Source: a virus
Virus record (IMG/VR): IMGVR_UViG_3300032006_000075
Span: 1 to 25,730 of that record
Strand: one strand, 5' to 3'
DNA: 25,730 bases
The position numbers were made by a program, and so were the translations under genes. Positions 4,828 through 24,915 of this stretch are shown in pieces. The stretch's first letter is position 1, and the number at the start of each line of letters is the position of its first letter. The notes under the pieces are model-generated. The model had not been told where the DNA came from and made no database searches. It saw only the letters and a program-made list of their open reading frames with translations.

Positions 4828-7029
4828 ATGTCTGATATAGAAGCCGGGGATCAACCTGCGGTTGTTGAATCAGAAGATATACCTTATGCTGTAGGTCTTA
4901 TCAAAAAGAAATTTGATGAGGCGGAGCAAGGTAGATTATCTGATGAACAAAGGTGGTTAAATTCCTATAAAAATTACAGGGGTGTCTATGACTCTTCTAC
5001 ACAGTTTAAAGGCTCAGAAAGATCAAAAGTTTTTGTAAAAGTAACAAAGACTAAAGTCTTAGCATCTTTTGGACAGATAACTGATATACTATTCTCTCAG
5101 GGGAAAGTTCCAATTAGTATTGAAGCTACCCCTATACCAGAAGGTATTTCAGAGTTTGCTAGTCTTGATGTTTCTAAAGAAGCTATAATGGCTGCTATGC
5201 AACAACCTCAACAAGAAATGCAATTTGGTGGGGAAGTTGAAATGCAGAACCAAGGTGTAGGTTTTGAAGGTGACGGTAAGTCTTGGAATCCGGGTCAGTT
5301 AGACTTGGGTGAACAACAAGGACTTGACGAGATGCCTGCCCAATTAAATGGTCTCGAAGCTAAATTTGGACAGTCAGAAAAACTCGTTCAAGGTCCTGCT
5401 AAATTAGGTGAACCTCAAATAAAACCTGCCGCAATAGCAGCACAAAAAATGCAAAAAGTTATAGATGATCAATTAACAGAAGCTCATGCAGTATCTGTTA
5501 TGAGACACGCTATATTTGAATGTGTAATGATGGGTACAGGAATTGTAAAAGGACCTTTTCATTATGAAAAAGATATTCATAATTGGGAACAAAATCCTGA
5601 AACTGGTGAAAGAACATATGTACCATTAAAAAGATTAGTTCCTAAACTAGAAGCTGTATCTTGCTGGGATTTTTATCCAGACCCTTCTGCTGTAGATATG
5701 AAAGACGCAGAGTATGCAATACAAAGACACAGGCTTAACAGACAACAAGTTAGAGATTTAAAAAACAAACCATTTTTTGATTTAGAAGCTATAGAAGAAT
5801 GTTTAGATATGGGTTCTAACTTTCAAAAAAGAGGATTTGAAGACGATATATATTCTGATGATGACCCAACATATATGGAAGATAGATTTGAAGTATTAGA
5901 ATATTGGGGAACATTAGATAGTGCAATGGCAGAAGAAATAGGAATGGAAATGCCAGAAGATGCTACCGAATTAAAAGAATTACAAGTTAATATTTGGATT
6001 TGTGGAAATACTATTTTACGAGCAGTTGTAAATCCATTTACTCCAAGTTTTTTACCATATCATGCGTTTCCATATGAGTTAAATCCATATCAATTTTTTG
6101 GTGTGGGTGTACCTGAAAACATGGAAGATGCACAAATGATTATGAATGGTCATATGAGAATGGCAATTGATAATCTTAGTCTTGCAGGAAATATGGTATT
6201 TGATATTGATGAAACAATGTTAGTTCCGGGTCAATCTATGGAAATACATCCGGGCAAAATATTTAGAAGACAATCAGGACAAGCAGGTCAATCTGTTGTT
6301 GGTTTAAAGTTTCCTAATACTGCAGGTGAAAACATACAGATGTATGATAAAGCACGACAACTTGCAGATGAAGAAACAGGAATACCAAGTATTGCACATG
6401 GTCAAACAGGTGTAACAGGAACAGGAAGAACTGCATCAGGATTAAGTATGTTATTAAATTCTGCAGGTCTATCTATAAAAACAGTCGTAAAGAATATTGA
6501 TGATTATTTACTGAAACCAGTAGGAGAATCATTTTATAGATGGAATATGCAATTTAATGTTGTAGACATAGACGCACAAGGAGATTTAGAGGTTAAGGCT
6601 AAAGGTACATCATCTGTAATGGCAAAAGAAGTACGTTCACAAAGATTAACTACTTTATTGCAAACAGTATCTAATCCAATGTTAGCACCTTTTATAAAAA
6701 TACCAAATCTTATAAAAGAATTAGCTATATCACAGGATATTGATCCAGAAGAATTGGTCAATGATACTAATCAAGCTGCAATTTTTGCAGACATTTTAAG
6801 AGGTCTTAATGTTCAACAGGGAGCAGGCGAAGAAGCTGGGACCGTTGGTCAACAACCACAAGGCATGGCAGGCACTGGAGGAGCACCTGCAGGAGCTAAC
6901 CCACAGGACATCTCAGGAGTTGGTGGTGGAACAATCGGAACAGGTTCTACGCCAATTGCAGGGGAAGATGGTTTTACTGGGACACCTCCTGAGCCTGAAG
7001 ACATCGGTGTTGGCAACAGTCAAGAGTAA
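4828..7029 (+). CDS. Portal protein
   Basis: The 733-residue product forms the ring at the DNA entry vertex, joining head, motor and tail. Its N-terminus (EQGRLSDEQRWLNSYKNYRG) and the GRTASGLSMLLNSAG segment at 533-547 followed by VKNIDDYLLKPVGESFYRW are typical of podovirus portals. Length matches P22-type portals rather than the roughly 530-residue T7 type. Residues about 122-205 are a low-complexity Gln/Gly/Glu insertion (QQPQQEMQFGGEVEMQNQG), likely an exposed loop. The last 69 residues (from about 665) are a Gly/Thr/Pro-rich disordered tail. The gene lies directly upstream of a GNAT gene, only five bases apart. Confidence 0.9.
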   Translation: MSDIEAGDQPAVVESEDIPYAVGLIKKKFDEAEQGRLSDEQRWLNSYKNYRGVYDSSTQFKGSERSKVFVKVTKTKVLASFGQITDILFSQGKVPISIEATPIPEGISEFASLDVSKEAIMAAMQQPQQEMQFGGEVEMQNQGVGFEGDGKSWNPGQLDLGEQQGLDEMPAQLNGLEAKFGQSEKLVQGPAKLGEPQIKPAAIAAQKMQKVIDDQLTEAHAVSVMRHAIFECVMMGTGIVKGPFHYEKDIHNWEQNPETGERTYVPLKRLVPKLEAVSCWDFYPDPSAVDMKDAEYAIQRHRLNRQQVRDLKNKPFFDLEAIEECLDMGSNFQKRGFEDDIYSDDDPTYMEDRFEVLEYWGTLDSAMAEEIGMEMPEDATELKELQVNIWICGNTILRAVVNPFTPSFLPYHAFPYELNPYQFFGVGVPENMEDAQMIMNGHMRMAIDNLSLAGNMVFDIDETMLVPGQSMEIHPGKIFRRQSGQAGQSVVGLKFPNTAGENIQMYDKARQLADEETGIPSIAHGQTGVTGTGRTASGLSMLLNSAGLSIKTVVKNIDDYLLKPVGESFYRWNMQFNVVDIDAQGDLEVKAKGTSSVMAKEVRSQRLTTLLQTVSNPMLAPFIKIPNLIKELAISQDIDPEELVNDTNQAAIFADILRGLNVQQGAGEEAGTVGQQPQGMAGTGGAPAGANPQDISGVGGGTIGTGSTPIAGEDGFTGTPPEPEDIGVGNSQE

Positions 7030-7034
7030 AATAG

Positions 7035-7505
7035 ATGACAATAAGCATAAGAAGTCTGAAAGAGTCTGATTCAGACCAAATAGTAGAGTTAGCTAAAAGC
7101 GAACACAATGAAAGTTATTATAACTTTTTAACTTTTAGTGAAGACAAAATACGAGCATTAGTAAAAACAACAATAGCAATGCCAGATGGTACAATTTGCT
7201 ATGTTGCAGAAGAACATGGTAAAATAATTGGTTTTATTTGTGGTTATTTAATTATGTATATTTCGACTAATGATTTTTTTACACAAGATTTAACTATATA
7301 TGTTACTCCAGATAAACGAGGAACATTAGCAGCTAAAAAATTAATTAAATATTTAGAATGCTGGGCTGAGATGAAAGGGTGTAAAGAATTATCATTAAGT
7401 ATAACATCTAATATTAATGCTGAAAGAACAGGTAAATTTTATAAATTATTAGGGTTTTCAGATGTAGGAAAAATATATCGAAAACAATTAACAAAGGAAA
7501 AATGA
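7035..7505 (+). CDS. GNAT-family N-acetyltransferase
   Basis: This 156-residue protein has the GNAT layout: N-terminal ISIRSLKESDSDQIVEL, the central beta strands CYVAEEHGKIIGFICGYL (55-72), and motif A LTIYVTPDKRGTLAAKKLI (86-104) whose RGTLAA forms the acetyl-CoA pyrophosphate loop. NAERTGKFYKLLGF (128-141) is motif B. It would transfer an acetyl group from acetyl-CoA to an amine, probably a protein or small molecule; the substrate cannot be read from sequence. It lies between portal and the transglycosylase virion protein, so a late role such as modifying a virion or host protein is inferred. Confidence 0.85.
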   Translation: MTISIRSLKESDSDQIVELAKSEHNESYYNFLTFSEDKIRALVKTTIAMPDGTICYVAEEHGKIIGFICGYLIMYISTNDFFTQDLTIYVTPDKRGTLAAKKLIKYLECWAEMKGCKELSLSITSNINAERTGKFYKLLGFSDVGKIYRKQLTKEK

Positions 7506-7512
7506 GGTAATT

Positions 7513-9882
7513 ATGGGCGGAGGCGGAGGTTCAAAAACAGTAGAAGTCGTAGAATATGTATACGAAGATCCAAAACATAGTATAACATCACAACAGATGG
7601 TTGATTTGTTTGGTCATGAACAACGACAAGCAGGACAACAAGATATATTTCAAGGAGCTGATATCGTAGGTAGACGGGCACAACCTACACCTACTGTAAC
7701 AGAAGTAGCAAGATATTTAAAAGATACTACGGGTGCAAATGTTATATCTGTTCCTGAATCCTCAGTTATAGAAGGTTCCGGAGGTATCGGTACAGGTATT
7801 GAAGAGTTTCAAACATCACAATTGGGACAAATAACCAGTAATATAGCTATGGATGTAAAAGCTAAAAAACCTGATTTACCTAAAGTAGCCTTACCAGAAC
7901 CTGCTGCGGGAATGAAAATTACAGGCGTAAAACCAAAAACTGCAGAACAAACATTAACAGATATTCAAGGATTTTCAGATATAGCTACAAGTGCACAACA
8001 AGGTGGTATAATACCTGATCCTAGTGTAGCACAACAAACAGCTGTAGGATTTCCGGGCTCAGATGTTTCGAGCAATTTATATAAACAACCATTAGCACCA
8101 ATTACTGAACAAATGCAACGAGCAAAGTTAGGTGCACAAGAAGGTTTAAGAGTTCCTGAAACTCTTGCAAATGAACCTGAATTAAAACCTGAAGTACCAG
8201 AAGGTAAAGGCGAAGCAATGGGTTTACCTCAACTATTTAATAAACCGGGTGCAGGTAAAGACGCAGATGATATCGAAGCAATTGCAGAACCAGATGATTT
8301 TATTTTAAACTCAAAAGTAAAAGAAATAGAAGGTGAAAAAGATATAGATGCAATGTTAGCGGGTGCAATAGATATTGCAAATAGAAAAGGATATCGTTTA
8401 TCACCACGTATAACAAATTTACCAAAAGATAAAGTAGTACCATTACTTGTAAGCAAAGATGAAATACGAGTTCCAAAAGTACTAGCAAAAATTATTGGTT
8501 ATGACAAATTAACCAAGATGAATAACCGAGGTAAAGCTGCGATGAAGGCAGAAGAACAACGACAGGCAACAGGGCAGCAAGTTGCACAAGCAAAACATGG
8601 CGGTGAAGTTCACAGCCAAAAAAAAAAATTTAAAGACGGTGGGTCTGTAGAAGGTGAATCTGCTACTAGTTTTCAAGATAAATTAAAGCAGTCTGAAAGT
8701 AGTGGAAGATATAAAATTGTTAATGAACAAGGTTATATGGGAGCATACCAATTTGGGGATGCAAGATTAAAAGATTATAAAGATGCAACTGGTGAAGAAT
8801 TTAGTAGAGAAGAGTTTTTAGCTAATGATGAATTACAAGATAAAATTTTCGAGTGGCATATAGAAGATTATACAACAAGAATTAAGGAAGATGGTTTAGA
8901 TAAACATATTGGAACAAAAATTAAAGGTGTTCCTGTTACACATACTGGATTATTAGCTGTTGCTCATTTAGGCGGATATTCCGGAATGACAAAATTTTTA
9001 AAAACTCAAGGTAAATATAATCCAAAAGATAAAAATAAAACAAGTCTTCTTGATTACTTAGAGAAATTTTCAACACTAGATAAGTCTAAAAAAGACACCC
9101 TTTTACAAAATACCGAGGTACCTTTTGTAGACAGAATTTTAAATCCAGAAAATTATATAAAACCGAAAGAACAAATAGATTCAGAGGGAAGAAGTTTTAT
9201 AGAAACACATAGAATGTCTTCTAGAGATAATTGGGCTTTTCCTACTGTAGTAATTGAAGATAATAAATATATAGATTTAATGGACAGATACAAGGGAGAT
9301 ATTAACGCTGTATTTGATCATAATAAAAAAACTGGAGATATACTTAGATTTCCTAGCGATGAAGAAGCACAAAACTTTTCTATGAATTATAAAGATATTC
9401 CATCTGCACAAAAATTTAATGAATATTATACACCAGATTATAGTAAATTTGAAGAAGAAGATAGAACAAACAGAGAAAAGATACAAAGAAAAATTTATGA
9501 TACTGCTCATACAATAAGACCACACGTAGATAGACTGATAAAAACAGGAGAATTACCACAGGAACAATTTAAAAGTTTTATGTCAGATGCAGTTAAGGCA
9601 AAAGTAGGTGATGCTGTAGTAGACAAAGCAAAAGATTTAGGAATGTACCCTAACTTTTTAGATGAAATAGATGCATCTGCAGAAATTAAAGGAAAAGATG
9701 ACTTCTCAGTACGAGCAGGAGACTTTGAATACGAAGAAAATCCTTTTAATAGACGTATACAAAAAACATTTGGTGAACCTGAAGGTATACACGGAAGCGT
9801 GGGAATAGACCAAAGTAAATACAGAGACGACACCTATGTTGGTGGCAAATTAGTTTTCCCACTAGGAAAACCTAAAAAATAG
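7513..9882 (+). CDS. Virion protein with lytic transglycosylase domain
   Basis: The 789-residue product is a mosaic. Residues 1-250 are Gly/Gln/Pro-rich and likely flexible, starting with GGGGGSK. Residues 262-345 form a compact charged segment (DDFILNSKVKEIEGEKDI). A basic GG-containing linker (KHGGEVHSQKKKFKDGGSV, 361-379) leads to a lysozyme-like domain: SESSGRY with probable catalytic E395, then GYMGAYQFG (407-415) and AHLGGYSG (484-491). At about 553-630 lies a module I know from other phage virion proteins (THRMSSRDNWAFPTVV followed by KKTGDILRFPSDEEA). The C-terminus is DTYVGGKLVFPLGK. It probably cuts peptidoglycan during DNA ejection. A tail-tip location is the alternative. Confidence 0.8.
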   Translation: MGGGGGSKTVEVVEYVYEDPKHSITSQQMVDLFGHEQRQAGQQDIFQGADIVGRRAQPTPTVTEVARYLKDTTGANVISVPESSVIEGSGGIGTGIEEFQTSQLGQITSNIAMDVKAKKPDLPKVALPEPAAGMKITGVKPKTAEQTLTDIQGFSDIATSAQQGGIIPDPSVAQQTAVGFPGSDVSSNLYKQPLAPITEQMQRAKLGAQEGLRVPETLANEPELKPEVPEGKGEAMGLPQLFNKPGAGKDADDIEAIAEPDDFILNSKVKEIEGEKDIDAMLAGAIDIANRKGYRLSPRITNLPKDKVVPLLVSKDEIRVPKVLAKIIGYDKLTKMNNRGKAAMKAEEQRQATGQQVAQAKHGGEVHSQKKKFKDGGSVEGESATSFQDKLKQSESSGRYKIVNEQGYMGAYQFGDARLKDYKDATGEEFSREEFLANDELQDKIFEWHIEDYTTRIKEDGLDKHIGTKIKGVPVTHTGLLAVAHLGGYSGMTKFLKTQGKYNPKDKNKTSLLDYLEKFSTLDKSKKDTLLQNTEVPFVDRILNPENYIKPKEQIDSEGRSFIETHRMSSRDNWAFPTVVIEDNKYIDLMDRYKGDINAVFDHNKKTGDILRFPSDEEAQNFSMNYKDIPSAQKFNEYYTPDYSKFEEEDRTNREKIQRKIYDTAHTIRPHVDRLIKTGELPQEQFKSFMSDAVKAKVGDAVVDKAKDLGMYPNFLDEIDASAEIKGKDDFSVRAGDFEYEENPFNRRIQKTFGEPEGIHGSVGIDQSKYRDDTYVGGKLVFPLGKPKK

Positions 9883-11877: not shown

Positions 11878-12321
11878 ATGACAACATATACAAAAACCGG
11901 CGATGCCGGTACAGTAGGTCACTCCGCAATTAAGAGGGTGCCTTACTTGGTCGAAAATACAGTTGATATGTCAGCTTTCGACCCAACTAACTCACCAGCG
12001 GACACTGTTCAAATGATCAATGTTCCAGCTGAAACTTTTGTTCTTAGTGCAGGAATGGAAGTAATAACTGCGAGTTCTAGTTCTGTAACTTGGACTCTAG
12101 GTGACGGAAGTGATCCGAATAGATACGTAACTACATCAGAAGGTACTAATGCAGCAGCACACAAAGCTGTTGTTGCACACGCTTCTAATACGGGATGTGT
12201 CTATGCATCAGCGGATACTCTTGATCTAGTTGTTGGCGGTGCTCAAGATACTGCTGGTAAAGTTAGAGTTTGGGCGATTATGTGTGACATTTCAGGTGTT
12301 GACGAAACTGACCGAAACTAA
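11878..12321 (+). CDS. Probable capsid decoration protein
   Basis: The 147-residue protein is beta-rich, with alternating T/V/A/S and few charges (VQMINVPAETFVLSAGMEV, SSSVTWTLGDGSD). It lies 16 bases after the capsid gene with its own AAGGAG site and before a terminator-like hairpin, so it belongs to the head transcript. Position, size and composition fit a head decoration or head-fibre protein. Two Cys (about 106 and 136) are present. I do not recognise the exact family. Its VPA element also occurs in the small beta proteins at 14114 and 19440. Confidence 0.6.
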   Translation: MTTYTKTGDAGTVGHSAIKRVPYLVENTVDMSAFDPTNSPADTVQMINVPAETFVLSAGMEVITASSSSVTWTLGDGSDPNRYVTTSEGTNAAAHKAVVAHASNTGCVYASADTLDLVVGGAQDTAGKVRVWAIMCDISGVDETDRN

Positions 12322-12329
12322 TAACTAAA

Positions 12330-12361
12330 ATCTAAGGGGGAAATAAAATTCCCCCCTAGAT
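12330..12361 (+). terminator. Strong hairpin after capsid genes
   Basis: ATCTA (12330-12334) pairs with TAGAT (12357-12361), and GGGGGAA (12336-12342) pairs with TTCCCCC (12349-12355) around ATAAAA, with a single A-C mismatch between the two stems. It begins nine bases after the decoration gene stop. No U-tract follows on the + strand, so it may act as a leaky terminator, an RNase processing site, or a stabiliser of the capsid transcript's 3' end. Confidence 0.65.
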
Positions 12362-12381
12362 CTATGGAGGCTGTAAATACA

Positions 12382-12417: not shown

Positions 12418-13086
12418 ATGAAATTTCACAAGTCTCCAATTGAAGGCATACGAGTAGTATCAAATGATCCTTTTTTAGGAATTATTGATGACTTTTTAGA
12501 TGATAAAGAAATTAAAGGAGTTATAGATTTAGTAAAAGACGAATTAAAACCTAGTTTAACTGTTAATAAAGAAACAGGCGAATACACGGTTTCTAAAACA
12601 AGAACTTCATATAGTGCAGAGCTACCAAAACATGCAACATTAGTACAAAAAATAGCAGAAAAATGTAGTACATACTCTGGCTATGATAAAGAACAATTAG
12701 AAGAATTACAAGTTGTTCATTATGAAGGCGGGCAAAAATTTGACTTTCACCATGATTCAAATCCACCGCTAAATAGAATATGTACAATATTAGTCTATTT
12801 AAATGATGTAGATAATTATGAAGGTCTAACAACATTTCCATATATAGGATATGCAGTTGCACCAAAAAAAGGAAGAGCAGTTATTTGGTATAACTTTAAA
12901 GATGATGGTAAATATGATATACGAGCAGGGCATGTTGGTTCACCAGTAACAAAAGGTGAAAAGTGGGCGTTAAATATATGGATAAAAGAAAACGAACTGA
13001 AAAATAATAAAGAGATAGATAAAAAATTTATTGAGTCTGAACATAAGAAATATCCACCAAAAAAGAAATTAGAAGTAATACTATAA
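12418..13086 (+). CDS. 2OG-Fe(II) oxygenase, prolyl 4-hydroxylase type
   Basis: This 222-residue enzyme has the complete prolyl 4-hydroxylase signature. FHHDSNPP supplies the iron ligands H111 and D113. ICTILVYLNDVDNYEGLTTF forms the core strands. AGHVGSPVTKGEKWALNIW supplies the third ligand H172 and, ten residues later, K182 for 2-oxoglutarate. It would hydroxylate a protein side chain, most likely proline, using O2, Fe(II) and 2-oxoglutarate. It has no signal peptide, so it acts in the host cytoplasm. Its stop overlaps the next ATG (TAATG), coupling it to a Cys-rich protein. The basic C-terminus (HKKYPPKKKLEV) contains prolines. Confidence 0.9.
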   Translation: MKFHKSPIEGIRVVSNDPFLGIIDDFLDDKEIKGVIDLVKDELKPSLTVNKETGEYTVSKTRTSYSAELPKHATLVQKIAEKCSTYSGYDKEQLEELQVVHYEGGQKFDFHHDSNPPLNRICTILVYLNDVDNYEGLTTFPYIGYAVAPKKGRAVIWYNFKDDGKYDIRAGHVGSPVTKGEKWALNIWIKENELKNNKEIDKKFIESEHKKYPPKKKLEVIL

Positions 13087-13433
13087 TGAAGTTTAAATGT
13101 TCAGTATATAATAATCCAAAAAAAAGGTTTCAACCTGATGGGTGTGCATGTTCACATAATTTACGTTTAGATTATGATGCATTTCCGGGAAAATTGGAAC
13201 CAATGAAGATTCAAAAAGGACCCTATAAAGGAAAAGATATTGTGTTATTTTGGGACCCTTATAAATGTGCAGATGGAAAATGGAGACCATTAGGATTAAG
13301 TGAGTGCACATTTTTTTGGAATCATAAAAACCAAGAATATGAGGGAGAATGTACAGAGTGTGGCATGTGTTGTGTAAAAGAAGTTAATGGAGAAATAGTT
13401 CCATGTAAATATTTAGATTTAAAAGGAGAATAA
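13086..13433 (+). CDS. Cysteine-rich protein with CxxCGxCC motif
   Basis: The 115-residue protein has ten Cys (5, 20, 22, 61, 74, 89, 92, 95, 96, 107). The cluster GECTECGMCCVKEV followed by PCKYLDL closely resembles the CxxCxxCC...C pattern of the YkgJ-type zinc- or iron-chelating domain. The N-terminal half (GCACSHNLRLDYDAF, then WDPYKCADGKWRPLGLSEC) may supply further ligands. It overlaps the oxygenase gene by one base, so the two are made together. A metal-binding role is likely; delivery of iron to the oxygenase, or redox support, is inference. It could also be a structural zinc protein. Confidence 0.7.
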   Translation: MKFKCSVYNNPKKRFQPDGCACSHNLRLDYDAFPGKLEPMKIQKGPYKGKDIVLFWDPYKCADGKWRPLGLSECTFFWNHKNQEYEGECTECGMCCVKEVNGEIVPCKYLDLKGE

Positions 13434-13434
13434 T

Positions 13435-13644
13435 ATGCTAAAAAAAATTAAAGAATACATTCAATGCAAAATCGATAAGTTTTTAAAAGATATAGGGTTA
13501 CGAAAAAAAATTGTTGTAGATATGACTCATACTGAAAACAGAAATGATATTGGTCCTATACATACTGACTCTTTATCAAACAGTCAATTACGATTAAAAA
13601 TCTTAGAAAAAAAACTAAAAGAATTAGAAAATAATAAAAAATGA
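13435..13644 (+). CDS. Small basic helical protein
   Basis: The product has 69 residues. An amphipathic N-terminal helix (MLKKIKEYIQCKIDKFLKDI) could bind a membrane or partner. A polar middle (DMTHTENRNDIGPIHTD) follows, and a C-terminal coiled-coil-like helix (LRLKILEKKLKELENNKK) ends it. GGAG before the ATG comes from the end of the previous gene, two bases away, so it is in the oxygenase operon. No family is recognised. Confidence 0.6.
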   Translation: MLKKIKEYIQCKIDKFLKDIGLRKKIVVDMTHTENRNDIGPIHTDSLSNSQLRLKILEKKLKELENNKK

Positions 13645-13787
13645 TAACCCTGTATTGTGAAAATTGTAGAAAGGAAATAAAACACATACAGTATTACAAA
13701 AATTCAGATTTTCACGAAAATCAAGATAGAAACTATTTTTATTGTGGACCAAGTTGTTCCACAGAACATTATGAAAAAATTTTGTAA
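13641..13787 (+). CDS. 48-residue zinc-finger-like microprotein
   Basis: The ATG overlaps the previous stop (ATGA), a coupled start. The product carries CENC (Cys 6 and 9) and YFYCGPSCSTEHYEK (Cys 35 and 39, His 43). This spacing and the aromatic residues before the second pair resemble treble-clef metal-binding modules of the TRASH/MYM type. It is the third member of the accessory cassette after the oxygenase with Cys features. It probably binds zinc, and its target is unknown. Length and overlap both support a real gene. Confidence 0.6.
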   Translation: MITLYCENCRKEIKHIQYYKNSDFHENQDRNYFYCGPSCSTEHYEKIL

Positions 13788-13848
13788 ATATATTTTTAAT
13801 TTATGCAATCTTATACCGAGATGGATAAAATGTCGTTGTAAGAAATAG
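13771..13848 (+). CDS. Possible 25-residue Cys-rich basic peptide
   Basis: The frame starts inside the end of the zinc-finger-like gene and ends at 13846-13848, just before a strong AAAGGAGGG site. The product is hydrophobic in the middle and basic, with four Cys at positions 5, 12, 21 and 23 (ending IKCRCKK). There is no convincing ribosome binding site. It fits the Cys-rich theme of the cassette but could be a chance frame. Confidence 0.3.
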   Translation: MKKFCKYIFNLCNLIPRWIKCRCKK

Positions 13849-13863
13849 CTAAAGGAGGGCTAT

Positions 13864-14121
13864 ATGTATCACTTATTTGTAATACTGTGTTTAACGGGAA
13901 GCCCTTGTGTGGATGACAGCAGATTAATAGTAAAAAGTGAAAATACTTTTGAAACAACTACTGCGTGTCAAGTATACTCGGACACTACATTTATACCTAA
14001 TGTACACGAGGAATTTAAAAAAGAATATGAATTATTTGGTGCCATATGTGTCGATGAAAACTATATCGACCTATTAAAAGGTAAAAGTTATAAAACAGTA
14101 AAGGAAGGAACTAATGTTTGA
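13864..14121 (+). CDS. Small exported-looking cysteine protein
   Basis: The product has 85 residues. The N-terminus MYHLFVILCLTGSPC is short and hydrophobic, resembling a minimal signal or anchor, but the Cys is not in a canonical lipobox because proline precedes it. The remainder is hydrophilic with Cys at about 35 and 62 (TTACQVY, GAICVDE), which could form a disulphide outside the cytoplasm. AAAGGAGGG before the ATG is one of the best ribosome binding sites here. It ends overlapping the next gene by eight bases. A superinfection-exclusion or lysis role is possible but nothing proves it. Confidence 0.6.
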   Translation: MYHLFVILCLTGSPCVDDSRLIVKSENTFETTTACQVYSDTTFIPNVHEEFKKEYELFGAICVDENYIDLLKGKSYKTVKEGTNV

Positions 14122-14470
14122 AGGAGTAATTAGGGGTGGAGTTCGCAATGTAAATGCGGGAGCTGCATTAGCCAATACAAACGCAACAACAGTATATACT
14201 GTCCCTGCTAATCACAGTGCATTAATTCCTATGATATGGCTTACTAATGTAGATACATCAGCAGCACAATATGCAACAGTAACGTGGCGAGATAGTAGTG
14301 CATCAGTAACATATAACCTAATATACCAGAAAGATGTAGCTTCAAAAGATTATACAATTATTACACCAAATTTAATATTAGAATCTGGTGATTATATACA
14401 AGTAACAGCAGAAACAGCTGACAAAATTACAGTAACATTAACAGCACAAGAATATATGGATGAAAACTAA
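14114..14470 (+). CDS. Small beta-rich virion-associated protein
   Basis: The product is 118 residues, beta-rich and poor in charge. Its pattern VYTVPANHSALIPMIWLTNV ... ITPNLILESGDYIQVTAE ... ITVTLTAQEYMDEN parallels the protein at 19440, suggesting distant paralogs with a beta-sandwich fold. AAGGAAGG precedes the start inside the previous gene. Its last base overlaps the adaptor start (TAATG). A small capsid, tail or fibre accessory role is likely from its neighbours. Confidence 0.6.
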   Translation: MFEGVIRGGVRNVNAGAALANTNATTVYTVPANHSALIPMIWLTNVDTSAAQYATVTWRDSSASVTYNLIYQKDVASKDYTIITPNLILESGDYIQVTAETADKITVTLTAQEYMDEN

Positions 14471-15540
14471 TGGCAACTTATCTAGTAACAGTAAATAATG
14501 TATTAACAGAATTAAATGAACCAACAATTACTACAGTAGGTACTACTACAGGTATACAAACTGCAGTAAAAGGATTTGTTGATAAAGCTATACGTGATAT
14601 TAATAACGCAGAATTAGAATGGTCGTTTAATCATAGTCAAGGTACACAAACAACAGAAGTAGGACAAAGAGAATACAAATATCCTAGTAGTGCTGTATCA
14701 ATAGACTATGATAATGTAATACTTAAACCAACAGAATTAGTAACGAATGGTGAATTTACATCTGATATAAGTAGCTGGACTACAATAGCAGGTGCAGGAA
14801 GTGGAGCATACAATAGTGGTGGTAATGGTAGATTACGACTAAATGATTACGCAGCCTATCAAGCAATATCAACTGTAGTAAATAAAACATATCGATTACA
14901 AGTTAGAGTATTAGATTCTCATGGGACAGGACAAGCATTAAAGGTTCAAGTAGGAACAGCTGCAGAAGGAACACAAAATTTAAATACAACATTGACAGTT
15001 ACAGATTATAATGCTGGTGCAATATTAGATACTACATTTGATGCTACAAAACAAACTACATATATTACATTAAATAACCCAAGTACAGCAACAAATATGG
15101 ATGTAGATTATGTTCGTATATCAGAAGATATAGGAACACAAAAATTAAAGTATATAACATATGAAGAATACAAAGATGCATATGCTGTAACAGATGAAGC
15201 TAATAATTCTGATGTCTATGGTAAACCATCAAGAATATATAAGATACCAAAAATATCATCTGAATTAGAATATTTTGGAGTATCACCAGTACCAGATAAA
15301 AATAACTATACATTATCTTTTGATTACTGGACATTCCCGAGTGATTTATCTAGTGATTCAGATACACCGGGCATGCCTACAAGATTTCACGATATAGTTG
15401 TAGCACGTGCAAAATATTATGCACATGTTATGCGTTCAGATCCTACCGCAGCACAGATAGCATTAGCAGAATACGAAAAAGGATTACAAAGAATGAGAAT
15501 AGATTTAATTAATAAACCAGAGTATATGAGAGGAGTATAA
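14470..15540 (+). CDS. Head-tail adaptor / tail tubular A-like protein with CBM-like insertion
   Basis: The flanks resemble the podovirus tail tubular A / gp4 type adaptor. The N-terminal part is helical, with KGFVDKAIRDINNAELEWSF and then VGQREYKYP. After a break the fold continues with LKYITYEEYKDAY, SRIYKIP and LSFDYWTFP, and ends in a helical ARAKYYAHVMRSD segment. Between them, residues about 89-219 look like an independent jelly-roll carbohydrate-binding domain of the CBM4/9 style: ELVTNGEFTSDISSWT, GRLRLN, AYQAISTVVNKTYRLQVRV, TTYITLNN and DVDYVRISE. At 356 residues it is much longer than the roughly 200-residue T7 gp11, and the insertion accounts for the excess. It would join the portal to the tail; the insertion may be exposed on the tail surface. 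Confidence 0.75.
   Translation: MATYLVTVNNVLTELNEPTITTVGTTTGIQTAVKGFVDKAIRDINNAELEWSFNHSQGTQTTEVGQREYKYPSSAVSIDYDNVILKPTELVTNGEFTSDISSWTTIAGAGSGAYNSGGNGRLRLNDYAAYQAISTVVNKTYRLQVRVLDSHGTGQALKVQVGTAAEGTQNLNTTLTVTDYNAGAILDTTFDATKQTTYITLNNPSTATNMDVDYVRISEDIGTQKLKYITYEEYKDAYAVTDEANNSDVYGKPSRIYKIPKISSELEYFGVSPVPDKNNYTLSFDYWTFPSDLSSDSDTPGMPTRFHDIVVARAKYYAHVMRSDPTAAQIALAEYEKGLQRMRIDLINKPEYMRGV
14734..15126 (+). other. Carbohydrate-binding-like domain inserted in adaptor gene
   Basis: This segment encodes residues 89-219 of the adaptor. It starts with the NGEF...W signature common at the beginning of CBM4/9-like jelly rolls and ends with the MDVDYVRI strand that usually closes them. The sequence on both sides would join into a continuous adaptor fold. 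Confidence 0.6.
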
Positions 15541-19818: not shown

Positions 19819-20994
19819 ATGCCTAAATATATACCTAGACAAATAGAGGGTAGAGATGTAGTTGACAATGCTGTAGATCATACAGCAGTTGCAGAAAGTT
19901 TTATACATCTGGCTACTGCCGCCCCCACAACTGCTGAAGACGAAGGCACAGGTTTCGCTGTTGGATGTCTATGGATAGATTATTCAAACGGTGAAACATA
20001 TACTTGTATTGATTCTACAGATGAAGCAGCCAAATGGGCAGCACAAGATGGTTCTGACGATGTTAATATTTCTCCTGCTTGGCAAGGTACAACTTATGCT
20101 TATGAACTAGGCGGTGCTACACCGGGTCCAACAGCAATGTCTGATAAAATTTCCAGATGGCCTGTTGCTGCTCCTTATCCTACAGCTGATGTAGGAGAAT
20201 TGGCACAAGGTATGGCTGCTATGGGGGCTTATTTAGGACCGGGAGATGTAGGTTTTACAGCAGGAGGATATAATCATCCGGGCAATTCATATTATGCTGA
20301 AGTAACAAGTTTTCCTACTGCAGGTCCACCTGTATCAACATCAAATCAAGGAGATTTAAACAGAGGTGGTTGGGCTTATGGAGGAGATGGTTGGAGTCCA
20401 ACTGAAGGATATACTTTTGGAGGACAAGATGGTCCACCGGGTTCTTCATACCAAAGCACTATTGATAAATTTACTTTTGCAGCTCCTTTTACAGCAGCAG
20501 ATGTCGCAGAAATGTCAGATGCCAGAGATTTTACATGTAGCCATGATGATGCAACACATACTTATATAGGAGGGGGCTGGGACCCGGGCACGTCTGATAA
20601 AATTGAAAGATTCCAAAAATCAACAACAACCGATTCAGCAGATGTTGGAGAACTTGCAGAATCTAGATATGGTATTCATGGTAATTCAGATGTTGTCGGT
20701 GGTTATGGTTATGCAAGTGGGGGTGGTGGTCCACCACCTTTGAATGAAAGGGATGTAATACAAAGATTTCCATTTGCAAGTTCAACTCCATCATCAGATA
20801 TTGGAGAATCGTCTGCTACCAATGCTTATGGTAGTCAAAGAGGAGCATCTACATTAACTCATGGTCATACTGCCCACAGATATGGACCGGGAGGAAATGG
20901 TATAGACAGGTTTGCATTTGGTTCATCAACTAGTGGAGCAGAAATTGGAGAAGTTGCAAATCTTCAAGATAATGAGGGAATGATTTGTGTATAA
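19819..20994 (+). CDS. Kelch-like tail fibre protein, paralog 1
   Basis: The product has 391 residues. The N-terminal domain (1 to about 90; PKYIPRQIEGRDVVDN, then GTGFAVGCLWIDYSNGETYT) is shared with the proteins at 21015 and 23722. The rest is about six kelch-like repeats of roughly 50 residues, for example YTFGGQDGPPGSSYQSTIDK followed by FTFAAPFTAADVAEMSDAR. Each has a Gly-Gly doublet, an I-x-RF strand and an ADVGE turn, the layout of a six-bladed propeller. It carries Pro-rich loops (GPPG, GPPPL). It is a likely receptor-binding component. Repeat divergence makes the blade count an estimate. Confidence 0.75.
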   Translation: MPKYIPRQIEGRDVVDNAVDHTAVAESFIHLATAAPTTAEDEGTGFAVGCLWIDYSNGETYTCIDSTDEAAKWAAQDGSDDVNISPAWQGTTYAYELGGATPGPTAMSDKISRWPVAAPYPTADVGELAQGMAAMGAYLGPGDVGFTAGGYNHPGNSYYAEVTSFPTAGPPVSTSNQGDLNRGGWAYGGDGWSPTEGYTFGGQDGPPGSSYQSTIDKFTFAAPFTAADVAEMSDARDFTCSHDDATHTYIGGGWDPGTSDKIERFQKSTTTDSADVGELAESRYGIHGNSDVVGGYGYASGGGGPPPLNERDVIQRFPFASSTPSSDIGESSATNAYGSQRGASTLTHGHTAHRYGPGGNGIDRFAFGSSTSGAEIGEVANLQDNEGMICV

Positions 20995-21014: not shown

Positions 21015-22157
21015 ATGAAATATACCCCTGAAAAAATACAAGCACACGAAATAAAAGATGAAACCCTAGAAAGTGGTGACATGAGCAAAAAAGTCATCCA
21101 CGTAAATGCAGGAGCACCTACAAAAACTAATGATACTGGAGAAGGGTATAATCAAGGTACGATTTGGGTAGATAGTACAAATGGAGATATGTATATTTGC
21201 ACTGCTCATACAGCAGAAGATGCTACTTGGCAAAATATGGACGGTGACGATATAAATAATGTTAGTTACCAAGGAACAAATACATCTTTTGGTATAGGAG
21301 GTAGAACAGCCCCCGGTAGCCCAAATGATTCAGATGTAGTAGATAAATTTTCTTTATCAAGTGATGCAAATGCTAGTGATGCAACTGAAGCAGTTGCTGC
21401 AAGTCCGGGTTACTCTACTGCAAACATGCAAGCATCGGAAGCTAAATCTTTAATATTAGGAAGAAGTAGTAATAATGATATAGGAATTTTTAATTTAGCA
21501 ACAGAAGCTATATCAGATTCTGGTAATGAATTAGCGGTAAATAATGGGGGTGGAGGAGGAACAAATCAATCTACTACTCACTATTTTCATTATAAAGATG
21601 GTCCGGCAGGAACCAATATCTATACAGGAGCTTTTTCAAGTCCTTATGCCGCATCCGACACTGGAGACGAAGCTACAGCGGGTGGATATAGTAGTGCAAC
21701 TTTTGGAGATAAAACCTACATGTTTTCAACTGCAGGTTATCTTGGTCCACCGGGAGCTCAACACAATCAAATTGAAAGAATGTCAAAAACTAGTCCACAT
21801 ACAGGTACTGATGTTGCAAATGCAGTTAGAGATGATAGAGGACAAACAGGTGGTTCAGCTTCTACTACTCATGGTTATACTTTTGGAGGAGAACCAGATA
21901 TATCTGATATTGAAAAATTTCAAATGTCAGCAACAAGTGATGCAAGTGATGTCGCTGAACTTGCCACAAACACCAATGGTGGGTGTGTAGGAGAACAAGC
22001 TTCTTCGCCATCAAGTGGTTATGCTATAGGTGGTAGTAATCCATCTCCAGCAGGAATAAATGTAATACAAAAATATTCTTTTTCAGCTGACCAAGATGCA
22101 ACTGATGTTGGAGATTTAAGTCAAGCTCGTTATGGAATAGGACATGCTTATTATTAA
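21015..22157 (+). CDS. Kelch-like tail fibre protein, paralog 2
   Basis: The product has 380 residues and shares the N-terminal domain (MKYTPEKIQAHEIKDETLES, then TNDTGEGYNQGTIWVDSTNG and AEDATWQ) with paralog 3 much more closely than with paralog 1. About six kelch-like repeats follow, the clearest being YTFGGEPDISDIEKFQMSAT and YAIGGSNPSPAGINVIQKYS. It has a Gly run (NNGGGGGTN) and a GPPG loop. It sits 20 bases after paralog 1, consistent with tandem duplication and later divergence. Probable receptor binder. Confidence 0.75.
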   Translation: MKYTPEKIQAHEIKDETLESGDMSKKVIHVNAGAPTKTNDTGEGYNQGTIWVDSTNGDMYICTAHTAEDATWQNMDGDDINNVSYQGTNTSFGIGGRTAPGSPNDSDVVDKFSLSSDANASDATEAVAASPGYSTANMQASEAKSLILGRSSNNDIGIFNLATEAISDSGNELAVNNGGGGGTNQSTTHYFHYKDGPAGTNIYTGAFSSPYAASDTGDEATAGGYSSATFGDKTYMFSTAGYLGPPGAQHNQIERMSKTSPHTGTDVANAVRDDRGQTGGSASTTHGYTFGGEPDISDIEKFQMSATSDASDVAELATNTNGGCVGEQASSPSSGYAIGGSNPSPAGINVIQKYSFSADQDATDVGDLSQARYGIGHAYY

Positions 22158-22263: not shown

Positions 22264-23101
22264 AGAAAAAACAAAGCATTGGGGTTTAATAACTTCTGAA
22301 ATGCACGATTCACCGCTTTATGATCAGAAATCATTTGGTGGTTTAACTATTAAAGATAACTTTAAAAAGGCATCTTTAGCAATACGACACGTACAACGTG
22401 AGCATAAAAAATATGGTAGAAGAAACTCGCAGTGGACAATTAAAAATTTAACACTTAGTTGGGACACGCCTAGTAGGAACCTTCGACAAATATCTGCTGA
22501 AGTGAAAAAGAAAGAAGAAGCACTATTTGAACATAAATATAAGCATAAACAAAACCAAATTAAAGTTGAAAGATATAAAAGAAAACTAGAAACAGAAAAA
22601 GATGATTTAAAAAAACTGGAACTAGAATTAAAAATTGAAAAAGAAATTGTAGGGTTTAATAGGGGTATTGATTACATAGAAGGAGCCCTAAAAGATATAT
22701 TAATACTTCGAAAATGTTATGACGATATAGTTCAAAAATACGGCTTACAGACAGAAGAAGATTTTGAGAAGTGGGAACAAAAGCATCACATTATGAGGTC
22801 TATTAGACAATGTGTACGTGATGTTAGAGAACGTGGAAAAATAACAAAAGGAGAACAAGAGTTCATAGAACAATGGGGCGGTAATCCATCTTATATGTTC
22901 AAACGAATTGTAGAACACGTTAATGCAGAACATAATACTGATGACCCATCCGGAGAACTACTAAATAAATTTGTAAATGATATGGCTGATGAGTTTAAAG
23001 ACTTAAATGTAAAACAATTAGAATATCATGGTTTTAATAGTAATGAGCAAATACAGAAGGATTTATTAAGAATAGAGACAAAAGTTAAAAAAGAGGATTA
23101 A
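22205..23101 (+). CDS. Coiled-coil protein of unknown function
   Basis: The 298-residue protein is charged and mainly helical. Residues 1-95 are a mixed domain (KTKHWGLITSEMHDSPLYDQ, WTIKNLTLSWDTPSRNLRQI). Residues 96-150 are a long Lys/Glu coiled coil (EVKKKEEALFEHKYKHKQNQ, KRKLETEKDDLKKLELELKI). The C-terminal half has QKHHIMRSIRQCVRDVRERG and GGNPSYMFKRIVEHVNAEHN. It lies between the kelch-like fibres and overlaps the oxygenase start by one base. I do not recognise a family. It may be a fibre chaperone or a late regulatory factor. Confidence 0.65.
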   Translation: MTKENNKNLEKVKQDLLADKEKTKHWGLITSEMHDSPLYDQKSFGGLTIKDNFKKASLAIRHVQREHKKYGRRNSQWTIKNLTLSWDTPSRNLRQISAEVKKKEEALFEHKYKHKQNQIKVERYKRKLETEKDDLKKLELELKIEKEIVGFNRGIDYIEGALKDILILRKCYDDIVQKYGLQTEEDFEKWEQKHHIMRSIRQCVRDVRERGKITKGEQEFIEQWGGNPSYMFKRIVEHVNAEHNTDDPSGELLNKFVNDMADEFKDLNVKQLEYHGFNSNEQIQKDLLRIETKVKKED

Positions 23102-23715
23102 TGTTTTATTCTTTTGATAGTGTTGAAAATCCCCGTGTTGACTGGCAAGTTGTTTGGAAACAAGCATTTAATGAAGAATTTGTAAAGGTAATACGAAATA
23201 GTATTGATGAAAATAAGTGGGAAGATGCTAAAGTTGGTGGAAATCCTAGTAAACCATCGGGAATAGTAGATAAAAAAATTCGTTCTGTAGTGCACCAACC
23301 ACTAAAAATAGGTGAATACAAAGGAATAAATGATTTTCCATATATACAAATAGCAGACGAGATAATAAAGGCAAATAGTGAAATATGGAAATTAGATTTG
23401 CACGGCTTTAATATGGCTAAAGACAAACCAAACATATTAAGATATAAAGCAGAAGAAAAAGGTCATTATGACTGGCATTTTGATTATGGAGCAGCATTTA
23501 GTAACAGAAAAATTAGTTTTTCTATACAATTATCTGATCCATCAGAATATGAAGGTGGAATGTTAGAGATAGCAAATATGCCACCAAATGAAGAAACACG
23601 AAAAAAAGGAACAATAATTTTATTTCCATCCTATGTACGTCATCGAGTAACTCCTGTAACACGAGGTACTAGATATTGTATAGTCGGATGGGTCCACGGA
23701 CCTCATTTTAAATAA
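23101..23715 (+). CDS. 2OG-Fe(II) oxygenase, PKHD type
   Basis: The 204-residue enzyme has HYDWHFDYG with iron ligands H126 and D128. Core strands (KISFSIQLSDPSEYEGGMLE) and FPSYVRHRVTPVTRGTRYCI follow, supplying H181 and, ten residues later, R191 for 2-oxoglutarate. Arg instead of Lys at this place fits PKHD-type hydroxylases such as the PiuC/YbiX group. The protein substrate is unknown. It has no signal peptide. It is coupled to the coiled-coil gene by a one-base overlap and lies six bases before kelch-like paralog 3, so a fibre could be its substrate. Confidence 0.9.
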   Translation: MFYSFDSVENPRVDWQVVWKQAFNEEFVKVIRNSIDENKWEDAKVGGNPSKPSGIVDKKIRSVVHQPLKIGEYKGINDFPYIQIADEIIKANSEIWKLDLHGFNMAKDKPNILRYKAEEKGHYDWHFDYGAAFSNRKISFSIQLSDPSEYEGGMLEIANMPPNEETRKKGTIILFPSYVRHRVTPVTRGTRYCIVGWVHGPHFK

Positions 23716-23721
23716 CAGATT

Positions 23722-24915
23722 ATGAAATATATACCAAGAAGATTTAATTCACAAAATTTTTTACCGGGCTCAGTAACTCAGGGAAAAGTATCAAAGAAAT
23801 TATTTGTAACAAGCTCATCTGATCCCGTAAAAACAAATGATACAGGAGAAGGTTACGCTGCAGGTACTACTTGGGTAAATACATCAAGTGGACAAGTGTT
23901 TATTTGTTCAGATAATTCTGCTGAAGATTCAGTTTGGTATGGACAAGAGGGAGATATTATTAATGAACCATTTACTATTGCTGGTTCTAATGGATATATT
24001 ATAGGTGGTTATGGAAACACCGGTCTTGTTGATACACAAGAAAAAGTTTCTTTTACAAGTCCTGCTAATGCAACAGATTTTGGCGAAGCAGGTAGAACAG
24101 TTAGAAATCAAGGATTTGGAGTTCAATGTGATTCATCTAAATCTTATGGGTTTACTTTTGGGGGATTAAGAGACCCATGGCCAACAAATACTGCTGATAT
24201 AGAAAGACATGGTTTTTCTGCTCCTACAAGTGGAACAAATACTGGCGAATTAACTTCTAATAGAGAATCAATGGCAACATCTACTGATGGAACTAAATCC
24301 ATGTTAATGGGTGGTTTATCAGTAAGTGATGGAACACAAGCACTTGATACTATTGAAATGGTAACATTAAGTACATCTGGAGAAAGTACGTCAGCAGATT
24401 CTGGTGCAGAATTATCTGCTTTAGTTGGTTATGCTTCAGGTGCTAGTGATACTGTAAATGGTAGAGGATATAGAACAGGTGGAAATCATTTTGGAGCATC
24501 CCCACCATATCCACAAACATCTAGTGATGTTATTGAATATTCTGCTTTTACTTCAACTGCAGATGCTGCTGATTGGGGTAATTTAGTTACAGCAAGACAA
24601 GGACATCATGCTTGTCATGCAAACACTACAGGAGTTTGGGCTTCAGGGCATGGTGGAGGACCAGTAAATACTCAAATAGAAACATTTTCATTTTCAAGTC
24701 CCGGAAACGCTACTGATGTAGGAGAAATGTCTACTACCTTTGGTGGACATGCTGGACATTCTAGTACAGATTATGGATTTGCTACAGGTGGAGCAACGCC
24801 CCCATCTGGTTATCATGACCAAATAGATAGATTTTCATTAGTATCTTCGGGAGATGGTGCTGACTTTGGAGAAATATCAGCAAGCAGAGGATATTACGCT
24901 TATACACAAGGATAA
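23722..24915 (+). CDS. Kelch-like tail fibre protein, paralog 3
   Basis: The product has 397 residues. The N-terminal domain (MKYIPRRFNSQNFLPGSVTQ, then TNDTGEGYAAGTTWVNTSSG, AEDSVWYGQEGDIIN) closely matches paralog 2. Six kelch-like repeats follow, such as YGFTFGGLRDPWPTNTADIE and YGFATGGATPPSGYHDQIDR with FSLVSSGDGADFGEIS. It is separated from paralogs 1 and 2 by the coiled-coil and oxygenase genes. It likely belongs to the same adsorption apparatus. Divergence in the repeats suggests different receptors or positions. Confidence 0.75.
   Translation: MKYIPRRFNSQNFLPGSVTQGKVSKKLFVTSSSDPVKTNDTGEGYAAGTTWVNTSSGQVFICSDNSAEDSVWYGQEGDIINEPFTIAGSNGYIIGGYGNTGLVDTQEKVSFTSPANATDFGEAGRTVRNQGFGVQCDSSKSYGFTFGGLRDPWPTNTADIERHGFSAPTSGTNTGELTSNRESMATSTDGTKSMLMGGLSVSDGTQALDTIEMVTLSTSGESTSADSGAELSALVGYASGASDTVNGRGYRTGGNHFGASPPYPQTSSDVIEYSAFTSTADAADWGNLVTARQGHHACHANTTGVWASGHGGGPVNTQIETFSFSSPGNATDVGEMSTTFGGHAGHSSTDYGFATGGATPPSGYHDQIDRFSLVSSGDGADFGEISASRGYYAYTQG

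Follow-up and report, generated by a model that had tools for sequence, protein, structure and literature searches.

Among pelagiphages of the HTVC023P type, eight non-orthologous 2-oxoglutarate (2OG)-Fe(II) oxygenases have been described, often beside genes annotated as ferrochelatase (PMC9599517), and seasonal marine viruses show an enrichment of both kinds of gene (PMC11561400). For the 2OG oxygenases of cyanophages, an action on 2OG levels or in DNA repair has been proposed (PMC3037559), while a review of the accessory genes of HMO-2011-type phages covers Fe-S genes, its text naming neither oxygenases nor hydroxylases nor YkgJ (PMC9038755). The cluster described here shares with the pelagiphage oxygenase-ferrochelatase sets the protein group PHROG 61 and the principle of an oxygenase accompanied by neighbouring genes (PMC9599517, PMC11561400), and differs from them in its oxygenase subfamily, in its place in the genome and in having Cys-rich neighbours instead of ferrochelatase-annotated genes, none of which was found next to the oxygenase among the neighbours scanned with Pfam and PHROG. 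An earlier sequence-only reading of this DNA had suggested that a hydroxylase with dedicated metal-binding partners could be a system new to phages; 2OG oxygenases with partners were already known from pelagiphages (PMC9599517), and it is for a prolyl 4-hydroxylase with Cys-rich partners in a phage that we found no description in the open-licence literature.

The window (the whole stretch of DNA that was analysed) is a complete IMG/VR record (25,730 bp) that represents a fragment of a phage genome; its G+C content is 34.8%. Its terminase is 53-56% identical to those of HMO-2011 and the roseophage CRP phages, its capsid protein is 56% identical to that of Pelagibacter phage HTVC033P, and its gene order agrees with that of HMO-2011 and HTVC033P. 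Judged by terminase and capsid homology and by shared gene order, the phage is of the HMO-2011 type, with part of its genome in hand; cultured phages of this type have genomes of about 53-56 kb. The features of the locus are the following:

11878..12321, + strand: 147-aa post-capsid protein, possibly a head decoration protein; conserved left border, lying 3' of the capsid gene in most relatives
12328..12363, + strand: G/C hairpin 3' of the post-capsid gene, conserved in the clade, lacking a T-run on the + strand
12418..13086, + strand: P4H, a collagen-type prolyl 4-hydroxylase-like 2OG-Fe(II) oxygenase (222 aa) that opens the slot
13086..13433, + strand: C10, a ten-Cys protein of 115 aa, similar at residues 83-114 to the first half of the cysteine-cluster module of YcgN
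13435..13644, + strand: hel, a predicted-helical protein of 69 aa that occurs only alongside P4H
13641..13787, + strand: C4, a four-Cys (CxxC...YCGxxxC) treble-clef/zinc-ribbon-like protein of 48 aa with sub-threshold family matches
13771..13848, + strand: four-Cys peptide MKKFCKYIFNLCNLIPRWIKCRCKK of 25 aa, its start lying within the 3' end of C4, in a different frame
13864..14121, + strand: exC, a four-Cys protein of 85 aa, exported-looking, with a hydrophobic N-terminus and conserved Cys
14114..14470, + strand: 118-aa conserved protein coupled to exC (PHROG 1276, 2e-9); right flank of the slot
14470..15540, + strand: SU10-type tail adaptor (Pfam SU10_adaptor, 1.9e-15); conserved right border

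All the ORFs that had been named at 12418-14121 were found, on the + strand, and the start-stop coupling ascribed to them is plain at the junctions. P4H and C10 meet at TAATG, C10 and hel are separated by 1 nt, hel and C4 share ATGA, and C4 and the four-Cys peptide, whose ATG at 13771 lies inside C4 and whose stop ends at 13848, overlap by 17 nt; the gap upstream of exC contains the ribosome-binding site AAAGGAGGG, and exC overlaps the 118-aa ORF by 8 nt. As a cassette the six genes lack a clean right end, since they continue directly into the 118-aa ORF and the SU10-type adaptor, both of them coupled as well. The left edge of the slot is the clade-conserved hairpin, formerly described as a capsid terminator. 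It sits after the 147-aa post-capsid gene, not after the capsid gene, and the terminator label was dropped for want of a T-run on the + strand; it is possibly a processing or mRNA-protecting element. In the relatives that were folded, a strong G/C hairpin of varying sequence occurs near the same place.

The suspected prolyl-4-hydroxylase-like enzyme was confirmed as such by family, structure matches and active-site residues. P4H belongs to Pfam PF13640 (2OG-FeII_Oxy_3; 1.3e-13, 52.1 bits against a cut-off of 27), and in an hmmsearch of its profile against solved structures in the PDB it matched P4HA2 (1.5e-22), a P4H (1.4e-20), P4H-1 (2e-18) and the viral enzyme vCPH (1.7e-11), which we take to be from human, Bacillus, Chlamydomonas and a chlorovirus, respectively. 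Akin to these collagen-type enzymes, with which it aligns over nearly the full length of the catalytic domain, it keeps the H-x-D...H...K signature, the Fe ligands H111-x-D113 and H172 and the 2OG lysine K182 aligning with those of the Bacillus enzyme. As opposed to them, it is phage-encoded, with about 30% identity at best to known phage homologues. The latter are distant (25-30% identity; one is annotated as a prolyl 4-hydroxylase), and P4H falls in the same PHROG as phage 2OG-Fe(II) oxygenases (PHROG 61, 2.2e-23); a search with a C-terminal fragment as query turned up no close P4H from bacteria. Copies 92-97% identical occur in contigs L002 and L006, with a partial copy in L007, and dN/dS is 0.04-0.17 in all pairs except one near-identical pair. 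The AlphaFold2 model reached a mean pLDDT of 35 because just three near-identical sequences exist, and was left out of the fold search. By its residues P4H is thus an apparently intact, catalytically complete collagen-type prolyl 4-hydroxylase, and it probably hydroxylates peptidyl proline. The enzyme might alternatively be an auxiliary oxygenase serving small-molecule or 2OG metabolism, in the manner of the abundant cyanophage and pelagiphage 2OG oxygenases for which modulation of 2OG has been proposed (PMC3037559); we consider this improbable, given that P4H aligns near full length with peptide prolyl hydroxylases and not with small-molecule enzymes.

C10 contains ten Cys and the motif CTECGMCC. 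All ten Cys are invariant in five of five contigs, and dN/dS between non-sister copies is 0.07-0.13 (one near-identical pair excepted). No entry in the family libraries was matched over threshold, the top sub-threshold matches all being YcgN. When the C10 alignment was compared by hhalign with an alignment of nine YcgN proteins, residues 83-114 aligned over 32 columns with a probability of 92.6% (4.5e-7 for one comparison); among shuffles with Cys held fixed, 1.5-2% did as well by HMM score and 0.15-1.5% by pairwise score, frequencies that make a relationship between the C-terminal part of C10 and the first half of YcgN suggestive only. C10 agrees modestly with the pattern of that first half (PRK05170, UPF0260; E-x-E-x2-C-x2-CG-x-CC...C-x2-L), sharing C-x2-CG-x-CC ... 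C-x2-LD within the 32 columns. As opposed to YcgN, it lacks the second half (C-x-C-x2-Y-x2-R...P-x-C...P-x2-C-x-Y), ending at residue 115, exactly where that half would start, and its N-terminal region is unrelated; its NCBIfam YcgN score is 15 against a cut-off of 150, which places it outside the full family. For the first 80 residues, with five Cys in the N-terminal region, no known relative was found. The earlier description of C10 as YkgJ-like was right about the CxxCGxCC motif but not about the family: neither the window (at E up to 10) nor any of the five C10 members matched PF03692 (CxxCxxCC/YkgJ), and that label was dropped. Searches with alignment-derived patterns, and searches of bacterial genomes, phage records and solved structures, found no distant relatives beyond L002, L003/L006 (L006 being the same as L003), L004 and L005, and two scans with degenerate motifs (DGCACSH; ECxxCGMCCxK) returned nothing beyond these same four contigs. 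The AlphaFold2 model (mean pLDDT 36, because just five near-identical sequences exist) was likewise left out of the fold search. By these comparisons C10 is a new protein family with clear selection on its cysteines. In FliB, a [4Fe-4S] cluster is carried by a related Cys motif (PMC8598068), a precedent that offers, by inference only, the best lead on the C10 ligand.

The smaller Cys genes gave weaker family signals. C4 shares the CxxC ... YCG...C pattern with small zinc fingers of the TRASH, MYND and zinc-ribbon kind, every match being below threshold (GRF ribbon 0.023, TRASH 0.089, MYND 0.46, PHROG 1315 0.005); the best scored 14.9 bits against a cut-off of 27, which leaves C4 outside the treble-clef/zinc-ribbon families (TRASH, MYND, GRF). 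Its Cys are invariant in L002, L004 and L005. The four-Cys peptide, previously listed as a possible gene, proved real: it is kept with all four Cys in L002, L004 and L005 (31 aa), with a dN of 0.19 against a dS of 2.3 over 22 codons, and by this measure it too is a new family under clear selection on its cysteines. The Cys of exC are invariant in the contigs that have it, with dN/dS of 0.2-0.37; in distant comparisons dN/dS of C4 and exC is 0.2-0.5, and that of hel is 0.20-0.33. Purifying selection thus acts on P4H, C10 and the peptide, and in all relatives found the Cys are invariant, the opposite of what had been named as grounds for abandoning the idea. That the small ORFs are chance or decaying genes would fit their very short length, the lack of any family over threshold and their occurrence in at most five contigs; it is contradicted for C10 and the peptide by dN/dS near 0.1 and by Cys that stay invariant while other positions vary, so that, even with the case weakest for C4 and exC, we regard it as highly improbable. 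The impression that the Cys proteins look metal-binding is supported by the weak but consistent matches of C10 to YcgN and of C4 to TRASH, MYND and zinc ribbons.

Whether oxygenase and Cys genes belong together can be read from the relatives. L002 and L006 keep the gene order of the window, L006 as far as its contig end. In two of the five contigs, L004 and L005, C10, C4, the peptide and exC lie at the same place without P4H and hel: a small MATYDL-type gene occupies the position of P4H, and in L004 C10 is joined directly to C4 (TAGTG). The flanking 118-aa protein is 95-96% identical in L002, L004 and L005, and the relatives of its gene yielded no additional cassette. No PF13640 domain was found in L004 or L005; these contigs are fragments of 9-12 kb, so a P4H may lie elsewhere in those genomes. 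In synteny, then, the oxygenase and the Cys run are separable pieces. Independent occurrence of the members, which the sequence-only reading had set as a ground for giving up the idea, is therefore half realised, in that the Cys run stands without P4H and hel in the slot.

This bears directly on the idea, put forward in that reading, of a hydroxylase with dedicated metal-binding partners, in which C10 and the other Cys proteins would supply P4H with iron or electrons or hold its substrate, for a joint protein modification. Such a module would suit the tight start-stop coupling and common position of the genes, the Fe(II) dependence of P4H, the YcgN-like CxxCGxCC...C of C10 with its [4Fe-4S] parallel in FliB, and the frequent adjacency of pelagiphage 2OG oxygenases to ferrochelatase-annotated genes (PMC9599517; gp58-gp61 in HTVC033P). 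However, C10, C4, the peptide and exC persist in L004 and L005 with no P4H in the slot, start-stop coupling is general in the operon, the adaptor gene included, and the gene that tracks P4H is hel (present with it in L002 and L006, absent from L004 and L005), not C10. A counterpoint to independence is the P4H/C10 junction, which is TAATG in both the window and L002, with the same spacing in L006; this linkage could reflect joint function. On balance we think a dedicated module distinctly unlikely, and improbable the narrower version in which P4H, a half-YcgN iron or Fe-S protein and the Cys microproteins together hydroxylate virion tail proteins; a single iron-handling or modification system is possible and is not the reading we favour.

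In 58 relatives with complete post-capsid-to-adaptor intervals, interval length varies between 75 and 4,487 bp, and the contents include Hsp20, a trypsin-like peptidase, lysozyme and a Rieske-type ring hydroxylase. This stretch of the HMO-2011-type structural operon is a variable cargo slot, and it provides a simple rule for where accessory genes are located in this abundant marine group, which can guide further search. A slot oxygenase is present in four of the 58, and in L043, L057 and L067 the first gene after the post-capsid gene is a different, unrelated 2OG oxygenase; oxygenases have entered the slot more than once. Small exported-looking Cys proteins also occur in slots without this P4H (L057, L067, L073, L079, L043, L062, L064). 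They accompanied slot oxygenases in 4/4 intervals against 3/54 of the others (Fisher 8e-5, with related contigs); this link was set aside on account of that relatedness and of long intervals being richer in every kind of gene. The Hsp20 and trypsin-like genes were seen in related phages at L060 3281-4528 and L061 2010-2411, and the slot of L079 holds a Rieske-type ring-hydroxylating oxygenase catalytic domain at 6443-7522 (PF00848, 1.2e-6).

Mixed cargo of this kind, with Hsp20 and trypsin-like genes, would also fit if P4H targeted a protein of the host, such as a translation factor or a surface protein, and the Cys proteins were unrelated factors of host takeover or superinfection. Against this, the position of the slot among the structural genes makes late expression probable, and the nearest solved P4Hs are of the collagen/HRGP type, with no EF-Tu-type prolyl hydroxylase among the solved-structure matches; we hold a host target to be unlikely.

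The reading we prefer, with a probability of roughly 0.45, is that of two separable pieces of cargo: P4H with its companion hel, modifying proline, and a Cys run acting independently. P4H would use Fe(II), 2OG and O2 to hydroxylate proline in a late-made protein, and C10, C4, the peptide and exC would, on their own, coordinate a metal, as Zn or as an Fe-S cluster, or else form thiol pairs. That the nearest relatives of P4H are collagen-like suggests Pro-Pro-Gly or Pro-rich loops as its targets, and the most plausible substrate would be Pro-Pro(-Gly) loops in the kelch-like tail proteins that the phage itself encodes. The window has two PPG tripeptides, both inside kelch-like tail genes. There are three genes of this kind (19819-20994, 21015-22157 and 23722-24915), and together they contain 7 PP pairs where composition predicts about 2.7, a small enrichment noticed post hoc. 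No Pfam family matched these genes, and the kelch-like label is a reading of their repeat pattern. If virion proteins are indeed among its targets, P4H would provide a concrete example of phage particles with hydroxyproline and assign a role to 2OG-Fe(II) oxygenases, one of the enzyme classes that are common but unexplained in marine phages.

A second 2OG oxygenase, of the PKHD/PiuC type, is encoded at 23101-23715, between kelch-like tail genes, and aligns weakly with P4H. From its location it is a candidate modifier of the kelch-like proteins, better placed than P4H. The equivalent region of HTVC033P (L119 5481-7595) encodes two 2OG oxygenases along with a ferrochelatase-annotated gene. The latter, gp58 (L119 5481-6125), is annotated as a putative ferrochelatase and falls in PHROG 2954, but it matches no Pfam family. 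A further PHROG with the ferrochelatase name, PHROG 3531, is matched by the window oxygenases in its C-terminal part only and by gp58 in its N-terminal part; from these split matches it looks like a fusion of a gp58 domain and a 2OG domain, and its ferrochelatase name may be wrong.

Elsewhere in the window, a GNAT acetyltransferase is encoded right after the portal gene (7035-7505; PF13508, 1.2e-11), and an 85-aa protein (710-967) marked by a very long run of Asp/Glu is followed by a Lys-rich protein of 74 aa with a CGC motif near its end.
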